Shown here piece by piece: positions 20,480 through 24,739 of a stretch of 64,000 bases of DNA (position 1 is its first letter; each line of letters starts with the position of its first letter). Below the pieces are notes generated by a model. The model was not told the DNA's origin. It did no database searches and saw only the letters and a list, made by a program, of their open reading frames with translations. The position numbers and the translations under genes are program-made. Source of the DNA: Chroogloeocystis siderophila 5.2 s.c.1 (GTDB lineage: Bacteria; Cyanobacteriota; Cyanobacteriia; Cyanobacteriales; Chroococcidiopsidaceae); NCBI RefSeq assembly GCF_001904655.1, contig NZ_MRCC01000007.1, positions 62,001 through 126,000 of the forward strand, written 5' to 3'.

Positions 20480-21934
20480 CTAGCTTAGCAGTTTACCTAG
20501 TTGGTGTTTGATCAGTAATTCCCTCAAAGATTTCACTTCGGCTTTGAGAACAGCATTTTCTACTTCTAACTCATCTACTCTTGCTTTGAGTACTTCTTGA
20601 GTATTCGCTTTTTGAATCACGATTTCTTTATAAATTTCTAAGTTCGTATCTTCATTCATCCATCGTTGGTACGTCTTCGTATGCTCTTGTACAGTATGAC
20701 CCATATAATCAGCCATCGTTTTTATGGGAATACGCAAGCGATGTCCGCGTATAGCATAAGCGTGGCGCAAATCATAAGGCTTAAAATTTATATGAGTCGT
20801 TCTAAACCGAATGTGAATTTTAGCAGTTTGATTATTTAAAGTTCCTCCTGTATTGGGAAACTTAACGTTTTTTAAATCAAATAACTCAACCCATTGAGGA
20901 TGCAATGGTGGAATTCCACACGTACGTTCGCCTGTTTTTGTACCACCTGTAAGACTCGGATTAAGCGTAACTAAATGAAATATATTTGATGGAGTAGTGA
21001 AAGCCTTGAGATCTACAGCAAATAATTCATGAGGTCTTAAACCATAGGTAGCTAACATTCCATATACCCATTGCCACTGTTCAGGTTGTGTTAGATTTTC
21101 TTTACTAGCATAGGGTGATAGAGAAGTTCCTATGGTATCAAAACCTTGAATAATCTCTTCATCAGTAGGAATTTTGCGAAGACTTGGTAATGGTTGAGGA
21201 GTCGTATACGAATCAATAATTTTATTAGCATCAACACCACAAAAATCACAAAACTTTTTGAGTTGCCAAGCTAAATAAAATCTTGTTGAGGTATTGGGTG
21301 GAACTGATTCTAAAGCTTTTTCCAAGGCTTTTTGAGTTAAGGGAACATCTTGAGGAAGTTTTTTGAGATGTCGCAGATAATGCGTTTCCCACGTACGGAT
21401 TCCTTGGCGATTTTTCTCATGAGTTTTCCAAAATTCTCGCTCGTACTCTTGAATCAGTACGCTGATCGGCTTTATTATGTCTGGTAACACATTTTTTTGA
21501 GCTTGCTTACCTAAAAGTTCCGGTGTCCACTGAAATTGCTTTGTCATTAACAGTAAGTCTAATTCTCGTGCTTTAGCGACAGCCGTTTTTACACCAGCAT
21601 CACTCGCAGGAAACCCCAGTGAAATTGTGTATTGCTTATTAGAAGTTCCGTTTTTACCTACGTCGCCAGGCTTACAAGGAAAAGTCCCTTGCAAGCCAAT
21701 TGATTTAGCTGTCGTTAGCTTGAGTTTGACTTTGACTCGATCGATACTTAATGCAGTGTTTGCTTGAGCGATCGCATACTTAATTCTCAGATACTCGCGT
21801 TCTATTTTCGCTATCTCATCCTTTGGGGAATTTGGTTTCCACTGCTTCCAGTCAGATGGTTTCCATTTATCAATAGAAGTACCATTCCATTCGGCTTGAC
21901 GCGGATCGTAAGAATTAAATTGCTGGCTTGGCAT
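20480..21934 (-). CDS. Site-specific tyrosine recombinase/integrase, orphan
   Basis: 484 residues. The catalytic half carries the tyrosine recombinase pattern: Arg in TYGLRPHEL, a Lys in GGTKTGERT, YDLRHAYAIRG where the usual HxxR reads Y-D-L-R, MGH in ADYMGHTVQEHT, and the nucleophile in KTYQRWM. The C-terminal 50 residues are a heptad-like coiled coil (VLKARVDELEVENAVLKAEVKSLREL). A SAM-like core-binding domain with basic residues lies in the middle. No excisionase, phage gene, tRNA or flanking direct repeat was found, so it is either a domesticated orphan or acts on a distant site. The His to Tyr change may be tolerated. Confidence 0.85.
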   Translation of the reverse strand: MPSQQFNSYDPRQAEWNGTSIDKWKPSDWKQWKPNSPKDEIAKIEREYLRIKYAIAQANTALSIDRVKVKLKLTTAKSIGLQGTFPCKPGDVGKNGTSNKQYTISLGFPASDAGVKTAVAKARELDLLLMTKQFQWTPELLGKQAQKNVLPDIIKPISVLIQEYEREFWKTHEKNRQGIRTWETHYLRHLKKLPQDVPLTQKALEKALESVPPNTSTRFYLAWQLKKFCDFCGVDANKIIDSYTTPQPLPSLRKIPTDEEIIQGFDTIGTSLSPYASKENLTQPEQWQWVYGMLATYGLRPHELFAVDLKAFTTPSNIFHLVTLNPSLTGGTKTGERTCGIPPLHPQWVELFDLKNVKFPNTGGTLNNQTAKIHIRFRTTHINFKPYDLRHAYAIRGHRLRIPIKTMADYMGHTVQEHTKTYQRWMNEDTNLEIYKEIVIQKANTQEVLKARVDELEVENAVLKAEVKSLRELLIKHQLGKLLS

Positions 21935-22017: not shown

Positions 22018-23043
22018 CTACACCAATCGAGTTAAAATTTCATCCTCAGTAGCATAGTCGAATAACTCCAATCCTGTCCATTTAGGCATTTCTGGCGGCG
22101 GGTTGCTACGTTCCCATTCAATCGTTTGTTTCAGTGCTTCCGCTTGGGATACAACCTCGCTGTAACCAAGTTCTTGACGAATGCGTGTTGTATCAGCAAA
22201 CCAATGTTGTTCAGTATTAAAAGGTAAGTTCCAACCTGCTGGTAAATAGTGTCTAGGAACAGATATTACTTCACCTTGCCATCCAGCCGCTTTCCCCACT
22301 TGATTTAGGCGTTCAGCTTCGGAAACTTGTAAATCTGCCAGATGATAGATGCGCCCCGTGGCTTGGGGATTAGTTACTGCAAGTGCGATCGCATGTGCGA
22401 CATTGTCAACATATCCATAACAGCCACGCCATTGCGCAAAATTTTCTGGTAACAAAATTACTGGACGATTTTCATCCATTCTTTTTAGATAAGGAAACAG
22501 ACGATGTAGAGGATCTTTTGGTCCGTACACCATTGGTAAACGAATGATTGTACCAGGTAACTCAGCATCACTCATTACGACTCGTTCAACTAAGATTTTG
22601 TCGTAATCCGCAGGAGCATTGAGCGCTCTTTGTGGCATATCTTGAAAAGGATAGAGTTGCTGACGTAGTGGCGAATCTTCGGTAAGTGGTACAGGGATAA
22701 TACCCGATTCCTTCCCTAAAAGCACGTCGTAAGCACGATACACATCCATACTACTAATCGCAACAACACGCTGAGCGATGTCTTTAAACGTTTTCATGCT
22801 TATCAGCGCATCTTGCTCAGTATAAAGAATCATGTCTAAAACGACATCAGGTGAAAGTTGCTGAAACTCACTTTTTAGTTCAAGAAGTTGAGCACGATCG
22901 CCTTTAATTTCCTTTACTCCTAACGGTAATTCAGCTAAAGTTTTTCCTCGATGAAATATAGTAACCTCATGACCCATTGCATGAATTCGATGTACTACCG
23001 AAGGACCAATAAAATTGGTTCCCCCTATAATTAAAATTTTCAT
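22018..23043 (-). CDS. NAD-dependent epimerase/dehydratase (extended SDR)
   Basis: 341 residues with ILIIGGTNFIGPSVVHRI at the N-terminus (Rossmann GxxxxxG variant), AISSMDVYRAYDV, the catalytic YDKILVE at about 148-154 and IRLPMVYGPKDP. It resembles sugar-nucleotide epimerase relatives found in chloroplast stem-loop-binding proteins (CSP41-like), without proof of substrate. Its start overlaps the stop of the ClpP-like gene by 4 bases (ATGA), so the two are translationally coupled, which is an unusual partnership. Confidence 0.87.
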   Translation of the reverse strand: MKILIIGGTNFIGPSVVHRIHAMGHEVTIFHRGKTLAELPLGVKEIKGDRAQLLELKSEFQQLSPDVVLDMILYTEQDALISMKTFKDIAQRVVAISSMDVYRAYDVLLGKESGIIPVPLTEDSPLRQQLYPFQDMPQRALNAPADYDKILVERVVMSDAELPGTIIRLPMVYGPKDPLHRLFPYLKRMDENRPVILLPENFAQWRGCYGYVDNVAHAIALAVTNPQATGRIYHLADLQVSEAERLNQVGKAAGWQGEVISVPRHYLPAGWNLPFNTEQHWFADTTRIRQELGYSEVVSQAEALKQTIEWERSNPPPEMPKWTGLELFDYATEDEILTRLV

Positions 23044-23636
23044 GGTATTTTTGTGATAAGGCTGTCGATTAAGCCGTATTTTTTCGCTTCTTCAGCACTC
23101 AAAAACAAGTTTCTACTTAAATCGATTTCAATTTGCTTGCGTGTTCTTCCAGTATTTTCAGCAAGAATTTGATTCAGTGTCTCTTTAAGATATAAAATCT
23201 CCTGAGCAGCTACCTCAATATCAGTTGCGTTTCCTTCAGTATTTCCTGACGGTTGCTGTAATTTAATTCGGGCGTGTGGTGAAGCATATCTTTTGCCCTT
23301 AGTTCCAGAAGCAAGTAAGAAAGCGCCCATTGCAGCAGCAGTACCAACACAAACTGTAGTAACATCTGTGCGAATTTGTTTCATCGCATCGTAAACAGTT
23401 ATTGCTGCGGTTGCTAAACCACCATCAGAGTTGATGAATAAAGAAATATCTTTTTCTGGATCTTCAGCATCAAGAAATAGTAGTTGTGCAACAATTAAGT
23501 TAGCTACTTCCTCAGTTAATTCACCCTTTAAAAAGACAATTCGCTCAGCAAGTAATCGCGAATAAATATCGAACGTTTGGTCTTTATGAAGAAAAGGTTG
23601 AATGACTGGAATGCTGAGTGGGATGGGAGTATTCAT
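23040..23636 (-). CDS. ClpP-like protein lacking the whole catalytic triad
   Basis: 198 residues aligned throughout with bacterial ClpP: TFDIYSRLLAERIVFLKGELTEEVANLIVAQLLFLDAEDPEKDISLFINS and the YGLIDSLI end. With a constant offset of 5 from E. coli mature numbering, Ser97 is Ala 102 (GTAAAMG for GLAASMG), His122 is Gln 127 (RIKLQQP for RIMIHQP) and Asp171 is Asn 176 (SRNLF for DRDFF). The NSPGGS oxyanion strand is NSDGGL. It therefore cannot cleave peptides and is functionally ClpR-like, but the sequence is close to ordinary ClpP, not to the known ClpR with its long N-terminal extension. Coupled to the epimerase. Confidence 0.92.
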   Translation of the reverse strand: MNTPIPLSIPVIQPFLHKDQTFDIYSRLLAERIVFLKGELTEEVANLIVAQLLFLDAEDPEKDISLFINSDGGLATAAITVYDAMKQIRTDVTTVCVGTAAAMGAFLLASGTKGKRYASPHARIKLQQPSGNTEGNATDIEVAAQEILYLKETLNQILAENTGRTRKQIEIDLSRNLFLSAEEAKKYGLIDSLITKIP

Positions 23637-23730: not shown

Positions 23731-24270
23731 TTAAGAAAGTGCGAAATTGTCTTGTGTTTCCTGTGCTAAAACTTCCGCAAGTTTGTGATTGATTAGATAT
23801 TCCCATTTACCACTAAAGTAGGAATTGAGGAGAATACTGCCAAATTGTTGGGATTCCGAAATGCGATCGCTTAGCAAGACTTGATGCGTTAGCTGTGCTT
23901 GCCAAGATTGAGTAGGACGTGTAGGTTGATTAATAGCGATCGCATCTTGTTGATAGCCGCGATGTTCTAAATGTAGTTGCGTACCGCCATCAACAGGCGT
24001 AAGCTTCCAAGTCACAATTGAGGGAGATTCCATCAAGTTATCTTGCCAAGAATAAGCAAGTTCGTGTGGTTCTCTAAGTTTTAGGACTTCGCAATAAATA
24101 ATCTCGTTTAACCCTGGTAATTGCGATTGAAAACAAAACTTGTGTCCTAAACAGGGTTCAAAGTCATTTTCCATTAACCATTTTGCTAATGAAGAACGAT
24201 TTGCGATCGCCTTCCATACTTTTTCTGGCGGATAAGGATAGAAAACTTCCATCTTTACGACTCGGAACAT
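23731..24270 (-). CDS. SRPBCC (AHSA1/START-like) domain protein
   Basis: 179 residues in the SRPBCC ligand-binding fold: MEVFYPYPPEKVWKAIANRSSLAKWLMENDFEPCLGHKFCF at the N-terminus, then CEVLKLREPHELAYSWQ, VTWKLTPVDGGTQLHLEHRG and a C-terminal helix. AHSA1-type proteins paired with ArsR regulators are common and usually of unknown ligand. It overlaps the arsR stop by 16 bases and must be translated from the same mRNA. Confidence 0.85.
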   Translation of the reverse strand: MFRVVKMEVFYPYPPEKVWKAIANRSSLAKWLMENDFEPCLGHKFCFQSQLPGLNEIIYCEVLKLREPHELAYSWQDNLMESPSIVTWKLTPVDGGTQLHLEHRGYQQDAIAINQPTRPTQSWQAQLTHQVLLSDRISESQQFGSILLNSYFSGKWEYLINHKLAEVLAQETQDNFALS

Positions 24271-24572
24271 GACTCCTCCAGATATTCACCCAGGTTATCG
24301 AGTTTCGCTTGCCAAAACTGTTCGTAGTGCGAAACCCAATTTTTCACTTGTTGCAATGGTTCGGGATTGAGTTGATATATCCGCTGACGCCCTAAGCGCC
24401 GTTGAGTAACTAAACCCGCCTCACACAAAATCTGTAAATGCTGCGAAATTGCAGGTAAAGACATTGCAAAAGGTTCTGCAAGTTGTTTTACGGGTTGTTC
24501 TCCATCCCGCAGGCGATCTAAAATTGCCCGACGTGTTGGATCGGCGATCGCTTGAAAAATATCTCCTCGCAT
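24255..24572 (-). CDS. ArsR/SmtB-family transcriptional regulator
   Basis: 105-residue winged-helix repressor: MRGDIFQAIADPTRRAILDRLRDGEQPVKQLAEPFAMSLPAISQHLQILCEAGLVTQRRLGRQRIYQL. The cysteine-containing metal site of classic SmtB (ELCVCDL) is absent and the QLAEPFAM segment replaces it, as in the ArsR subgroup linked to AHSA1 proteins. First gene of a two-gene operon; two copies of one palindrome lie upstream and are probably its own operators. Confidence 0.92.
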   Translation of the reverse strand: MRGDIFQAIADPTRRAILDRLRDGEQPVKQLAEPFAMSLPAISQHLQILCEAGLVTQRRLGRQRIYQLNPEPLQQVKNWVSHYEQFWQAKLDNLGEYLEESCSES

Positions 24573-24587
24573 AAAACAGCAAATACT

Positions 24588-24602
24588 TAAGTAAATGCTT
24601 AA
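24588..24602. promoter_or_regulatory. Proximal ArsR operator candidate
   Basis: TAAGTAAATGCTTAA, an imperfect palindrome 16-30 bases before the arsR start codon. It matches the distal site at 12 of 15 positions, and their starts are 32 bases apart. Confidence 0.6.
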
Positions 24603-24619
24603 CTGTTTTCTAGAATATA

Positions 24620-24634
24620 TAAGTAATTACTTAA
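24620..24634. promoter_or_regulatory. Distal ArsR operator candidate
   Basis: TAAGTAATTACTTAA, with a perfect palindrome over its first 14 bases (TAAGTAATTACTTA). Together with the proximal site it forms a pair three helical turns apart, typical of cooperative autoregulation. Confidence 0.65.
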
Positions 24635-24739
24635 ATGTCAAGGAGCAAGCTATTTCGGATCTGTCATAAATCTTTTCGAGTTCTTGACTTTGGTTTCCTA
24701 CAGTGAAATGGCAAACCCAAATTAAGGGAATTTCACACA

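Follow-up and report, generated by a model that had tools for sequence, protein, structure and literature searches.

An arsR-led cassette in cyanobacteria carries a ClpP paralogue predicted to be catalytically inactive and apparently distinct from ClpR

The window (the whole 64,000-nucleotide stretch of Chroogloeocystis siderophila DNA that was analysed) contains a run of minus-strand genes headed by an ArsR-family regulator, among them a gene for a ClpP paralogue that is called cassette ClpP here. The features of the locus, in the direction of transcription, are:

24614..24641, minus strand: promoter-like TTGACA-16-TATATT, with a first dyad between and over the hexamers; TTGACATTTAAG, identical in 31/31 loci
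24587..24602, minus strand: second dyad, TTAAGCATTTACTTAA, downstream of the -10 and before the arsR ATG at 24572
24255..24572, minus strand: ArsR-family regulator gene (domain search), with a 16-base overlap with the AHSA1 gene; present in 31/34 clp loci
23731..24270, minus strand: SRPBCC/AHSA1-domain gene (PF08327, domain search); present in 31/34 clp loci
23040..23636, minus strand: inactive ClpP paralogue (cassette ClpP), 198 aa; PF00574 at 1.7e-69, triad A/Q/N, clade M support 100/98, inactive group support 99/96
23331..23333, minus strand: codon 102, Ala at the catalytic Ser position
23256..23258, minus strand: codon 127, Gln at the catalytic His position
23109..23111, minus strand: codon 176, Asn at the catalytic Asp position
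22018..23043, minus strand: SDR gene (PF01370, domain search), YxxxK not seen by eye; present in 26/34 clp loci

The clp frame starts with ATG and is open over 198 aa. PF00574 covers residues 19-195, a full-length ClpP domain, and the nearest PDB matches were bacterial ClpP at about 1e-64. An earlier sequence-only reading of this DNA held that the whole triad had been lost, and translation confirmed all three replacements: A102 in GTAAAMGAFL, Q127 in RIKLQQPS, and N176 in DLSRNLFLS. The oxyanion motif that it gave as NSDGGL was likewise seen in the frame, as INSDGGL. Its view that the rest of the protein is well conserved and under selection agreed with NG86 dN/dS values of 0.139-0.243, obtained for eight pairs among the window clp and its five closest orthologues from the two nearest genera. 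Given the open frame and these ratios, clp is not pseudogene-like, and the low dN/dS indicates that the cassette ClpP sequence is under constraint. A chance open reading frame at 23040-23636 was considered and rejected or disfavoured. An AlphaFold monomer model of cassette ClpP, built on 33 sequences, reached a mean pLDDT of 51 and was set aside as poor. A search of PADLOC defence families gave zero matches for the clp, SDR, and AHSA1 proteins, and the ArsR protein matched 10 models (under the names Csa3, CARF3, CasR, and PDC-M05A; best 1.3e-16).

The SDR and clp frames share four bases (23040-23043), as had been claimed for clp and an extended-SDR gene. The related claim that clp is coupled to an epimerase gene held only in part: the SDR gene is linked to clp, but the pair belongs to a larger cassette headed by arsR and AHSA1, and since YxxxK was not seen by eye, "epimerase" is to be taken as a family name only. 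A PDB sequence search with the SDR returned no match. The closest PDB folds to its model (mean pLDDT 71) were UDP-sugar epimerases (TM about 0.55, 17% identity), which points to a general epimerase type only. The four-base overlap recurred in 6 of the 26 loci with an SDR, all six from the two nearest genera. In the remaining loci, the distance between clp and SDR is variable, or the SDR is upstream. When SDR presence was scored as a match at E 1e-40 or better to a profile made from cassette SDRs, 21 of the 388 genomes of the order had both genes, 4 had clp alone, 5 had SDR alone, and 358 had neither, counts that ignore kinship.

A survey of 34 clp loci (33 fetched plus the window) revealed a conserved order of arsR, SRPBCC(AHSA1), cupin or other enzymes, clp, and SDR. 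ArsR and AHSA1 were each found in 31 loci, SDR in 26, and cupin in 11; arsR was on the clp strand in 31/31 loci, and the outer neighbours of the cassette vary among lineages. Three loci had no arsR in the fetched flanks: in G221 it lies about 9 kb upstream, in G271 it is on another contig, and the third locus is that of Hyella. In some loci (G221, G303), as much as 9 kb of other or opposite-strand ORFs separates arsR from clp, and in some genomes the cassette occurs without clp; both observations count against the main reading. Overall, the compared sequences show that clp is cargo of a conserved arsR/SRPBCC-led cassette. Adjoining the cassette in the window is a 484-aa gene (20480-21934) whose end resembles a tyrosine recombinase, as judged by eye only, and whose order is kept in close relatives; it had no Pfam or NCBIfam match.

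The promoter region upstream of arsR is nearly invariant: TTGACATTTAAG is identical in 31/31 loci and is followed by a -10-like hexamer and the second dyad. In the window, TTGACA lies at 24641-24636, TATATT at 24619-24614, and the second dyad at 24602-24587, ahead of the arsR ATG at 24572. An exact TTAAGC-N4-GCTTAA dyad was present in 15 of the 31 loci. A generic promoter scan found 5 sites where 6.1 were expected, which is not above chance, so the argument for a promoter rests on conservation. A 22-base pattern drawn from the arsR-upstream loci matched a single site in the own genome and occurred in 40/388 genomes of the order, once in each, compared with 2/388 for the reversed pattern used as control. 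It was present in 25/25 clp genomes, largely by construction, since 23 of the 25 had supplied loci for the pattern; for this reason Fisher values, which also ignore kinship, are not counted as evidence for the promoter. The two independent ones, G221 and G271, both have the site before arsR. In the 15 genomes scored as without clp, which likewise played no part in drawing the pattern, the site lies ahead of arsR and on its strand in 15/15, with AHSA1 recognised in 13. A single site per genome, in all 15 of these cases before arsR, makes the site look dedicated to the arsR locus. We infer that ArsR binds the two palindromes.

What follows arsR and AHSA1 differs among genomes scored as without clp. 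For example, a hydrolase and GST are found in G081 and G158, a nucleotidyltransferase-like gene in G132 and G171, an amino-acid-permease-like gene in G012, and a cupin-SDR pair in G172; in G032 and G360, arsR follows the promoter site and AHSA1 was not recognised. In G012, the promoter site is followed by a single 241-aa frame that joins ArsR to AHSA1 (L207:1977-2702), and the downstream neighbours are the same as in the window, with clp and SDR absent. G221 has a ten-gene version (L219:1486-12001) in which arsR-AHSA1 is followed by genes for NTase-like, ABC-exporter-like, M14-like, VioC-like FAD, and lactonase-like MBL proteins, GST, clp, and SDR, and which includes one opposite-strand ORF; NCBIfam matches for five of the G221 proteins and the GST were all below their cut-offs. 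Cargo outside the window includes GST, FAD-monooxygenase-like, MBL-fold, and ABC-exporter-like proteins, a set that fits a chemically induced operon.

The genome to which the window belongs also encodes the ordinary Clp subunits. Its 43 contigs gave six PF00574 matches, comprising five full ClpP-family genes and one weak match (21.6 bits); besides cassette clp, the full genes are those for ClpP1, ClpP2, and ClpP3, whose triads are intact, and for one ClpR. In the section of a review used here, the cyanobacterial set consists of three ClpP and a single ClpR (PMC7966870). ClpP2 is flanked by trigger-factor-like and ClpX-like ORFs, and the ClpR-ClpP3 gene pair lies on contig C5, with cassette clp on C7; neighbour names (trigger factor, ClpX, KsgA, IspE) were assigned by eye and not by family search.

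To delimit the family, a profile built from the first ten cassette ClpPs was searched against the 388 genomes of the order. It scored at least 300 bits in 24 of them, with the next score at 288 or below; G352 (285.8 bits, under some ordinary ClpPs) was accepted into the family once its sequence and its place in the tree had been inspected, giving 25/388 genomes with cassette clp. Another member, G407, is from a different order and was found among 388 genomes of the class. Among the named genera that carry the gene are Gloeocapsopsis, Brasilonema, Hassallia, Pelatocladus, Scytonematopsis, Fischerella, Hydrococcus, and Hyella. Two genomes with pieces of clp were scored as without it, namely G239, where a contig end interrupts the gene, and G253, where the clp copy is truncated to a 117-aa fragment. 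The tree excludes L049, L053, L054, and L055, as well as L043, L044, L047, and L050, which were identical to other rows; L051 is in the tree and absent from alignment A2.

In the IQ-TREE phylogeny of 81 rows, the cassette ClpPs form one clade, M (36 rows, support 100/98), drawn beside ClpP1/ClpP2, with ClpR (100/100, on a very long branch of 1.47) and ClpP3 (99/91) placed elsewhere. AU tests did not reject a single clade of inactive rows and ClpR (p 0.093, or 0.186 in a reduced set), nor one of the entire clade M and ClpR (p 0.321). The insert that ClpR has after its GG motif is absent from cassette ClpP in both sequence and alignment columns, and cassette ClpP has neither the characteristic N-terminus of ClpR nor its adjacency to clpP3. 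The residues also differ: in ten genomes, ClpR has G at the Ser position (10), H (8) or N (2) at the His position, and L, T, I, or M at the Asp position, a pattern that counts for cassette ClpP being distinct. The sequence-only reading had proposed a separate, later-derived inactive subunit, to be abandoned if the protein grouped tightly with canonical ClpR; on the best tree it does not, and the missing insert, the location, and the pattern of triad loss favour the proposal. On that tree, cassette ClpP falls outside the lineage of clpR, although the AU tests alone are insufficient to separate the two. Two side observations concern other triad-intact ClpPs: an extra group near ClpP1 in G006, G009, and G379 (L092, L097, L142; support 100/99), and another gene in G407 (L171:9897-10508), which adjoins the arsR-AHSA1-clp cassette in divergent orientation and may be the ClpP1 of that genome.

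Triad residues vary within clade M. Ser-His-Asp is kept in seven basal rows (G407, Brasilonema copy 1, G232, G343, G355, G373, and G377), all of them (six loci of the order and G407) inside arsR-AHSA1 cassettes. The other 29 are inactive and form a single group (99/96), with residues ARD in 13 rows, AQN in 4, SQD in 4, SRD in 2, GAD in 2, and AQD, AQT, MSD, and GAE in 1 each. His is lost in 29/29, Ser in 23/29, and Asp in 6/29; all three are gone in six rows (four AQN, AQT, and GAE). The minimum numbers of changes on the tree are 1 for His, 3 for Ser, and 3 for Asp. These sequences show that His was lost in one sublineage, after which Ser and Asp changed several times while the rest of the protein stayed constrained. 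Close relatives with the same gene and an intact triad had been named as evidence against a derived inactive subunit; the seven intact rows of clade M go part of the way towards this, and the five nearest orthologues have no intact triad. Brasilonema sp. UFV-L1 has triad-intact and inactive cassette clp in tandem (L039:9923-11554). Its inactive copy 2 contains one in-frame TAA stop and the frames of the other 28 inactive rows are open; together with the truncated G253 copy, this stop shows occasional decay.

In the ring-ring handle, the inactive group has G>N/S at E. coli position 127 in 23/29 rows and Q>E at 129 in 23/29, changes found in 0/7 triad-intact members. Agreement of the group with the P1/P2 consensus was 0.53 for the handle, 0.63 for the presumed pocket, and 0.60 for all columns; handle and presumed docking-pocket columns are therefore not conserved above the rest, and no preferred partner is indicated. 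At columns that we take to be docking/ADEP sites, clade M has mostly T, S, or F at column 60, versus Y or Q in P1/P2, and mostly Y at column 112, versus M; window cassette ClpP is further changed at two positions that presumably belong to the same sites (62 F, 114 S). The changed residues of the presumed pocket across the clade would fit either altered unfoldase contact or insensitivity to ClpP-targeting compounds.

On the reading that we favour, held with a little less than even confidence, clp would encode an inducible, catalytically dead subunit that is released by ArsR derepression, joins housekeeping ClpP rings, and alters their activity or docking, as ClpR and ClpP_ADEP do. The operon would stay under ArsR repression in the absence of a small-molecule signal, which the SRPBCC protein, as ligand sensor, would probably help to detect. 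The dead subunit would then enter rings with housekeeping ClpP (P1/P2 or P3/R), resulting in fewer active sites and altered unfoldase docking, and SDR, cupin, GST, and similar cargo would act on the inducing compound. Mixed rings seem the likeliest outcome because of the precedents: ClpP3/ClpR rings (PMC4673316), Streptomyces ClpP_ADEP, which interferes with ClpP1P2 formation (PMC12607617), and inactive plant CLPP3, which complements a null mutant (PMC6508832), each as described in excerpts of these reports. A broader version, which we regard as possible and advance tentatively, is that cyanobacteria have a second, independent ClpR-like pseudo-subunit whose supply is switched by an ArsR/SRPBCC sensor, such that a small molecule would reprogramme the Clp protease by subunit exchange; the stages would still be visible as an intact single copy, an intact and dead tandem pair, loss of His, and loss of all three residues.

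Some of the same evidence could be read as self-protection, which we think unlikely: the cassette would sense a ClpP-targeting molecule, and a nucleophile-less, pocket-changed subunit would replace or disrupt the sensitive rings. The chemical-defence-like cargo of some genomes (GST, FAD-monooxygenase-like, ABC-exporter-like) and the clade M differences from P1/P2 at presumed docking/ADEP columns are consistent with this, although the pocket residues are presumed ones, basal members of the clade retain the triad, and a biosynthetic cluster was not noticed when the ORFs of about 18-29 kb of the window and the fetched flanks were read by eye. Its precedent is ClpP_ADEP, as portrayed in the excerpted report (PMC12607617). 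It is doubtful that cassette ClpP instead forms a homomeric non-proteolytic chamber or a scaffold for cassette enzymes. An SDR match at E 1e-40 or better in 21/25 clp genomes versus 5/363 others would suit a scaffold; however, SDR follows arsR-AHSA1 with no clp recognised in G132, G172, and G279, clp occurs without such a match in G011, G194, G232, and G303, and triad-intact members occupy the same cassette position.

Two further possibilities seem very improbable. If cassette ClpP were a diverged canonical ClpR, the missing working triad of both would be explained, and the AU tests of inactive rows with ClpR were not significant; against this, the tree separates the two with strong support on either side, inactive rows have a mean identity of 63% to triad-intact cassette ClpPs versus 38% to ClpR, and have 7 diagnostic sites in common with the former versus 2 with the latter, the insert after GG is missing, and the genome's own ClpR adjoins ClpP3. 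A functionless, decaying gene, to which the lost catalytic residues, the truncated G253 copy, and the Brasilonema stop might point, is largely refuted by the dN/dS of the eight pairs, and the open frames of the other 28 inactive rows and the conserved promoter and cassette position also speak against it.

If the favoured reading of an inducible dead subunit is correct, cassette ClpP may enable cells to retune their principal proteolytic machinery in response to a chemical signal. The second inactive lineage, its triad-intact cousins, and the living intermediates together offer a natural series in which to ask why dead subunits came to be part of Clp rings, and with a single conserved promoter the question is testable by induction. 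No description of the cassette or of this inactive ClpP lineage was found among the titles and abstracts listed in searches of open-access papers.

Cassette ClpP is apparently a second, separately evolved inactive ClpP version in cyanobacteria. Like cyanobacterial ClpR, it is a ClpP homologue without a working triad that occurs alongside active ClpPs, and ClpR provides the mixed-ring precedent, according to the excerpted source (PMC4673316). In contrast to ClpR, it forms a separate clade on the best tree, has no insert, is not beside clpP3, belongs to an arsR-led cassette, and occurs in 25/388 genomes of the order; His is kept in 8/10 ClpR and lost in all inactive cassette rows. Streptomyces ClpP_ADEP is similarly an extra ClpP encoded near chemistry-related genes and is described as interfering with housekeeping ClpP assembly, an effect that for cassette ClpP is a proposal. 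It differs in belonging to another phylum and in its reported functional complex with ClpP2, and the excerpted text makes no mention of triad loss (PMC12607617); nor was a biosynthetic cluster noticed by eye at the window cassette (ORFs of about 18-29 kb and fetched flanks). Plant CLPR1-4 and CLPP3 S164A resemble cassette ClpP as inactive subunits in a mixed core, which in their case is the plastid core of plants, as given in part of that report (PMC6508832). Within clade M itself, the triad-intact cassette ClpPs (Brasilonema copy 1, G343, and G407) have the same arsR-AHSA1 neighbours and the same promoter word (with one change in G407), and differ in retaining Ser-His-Asp.
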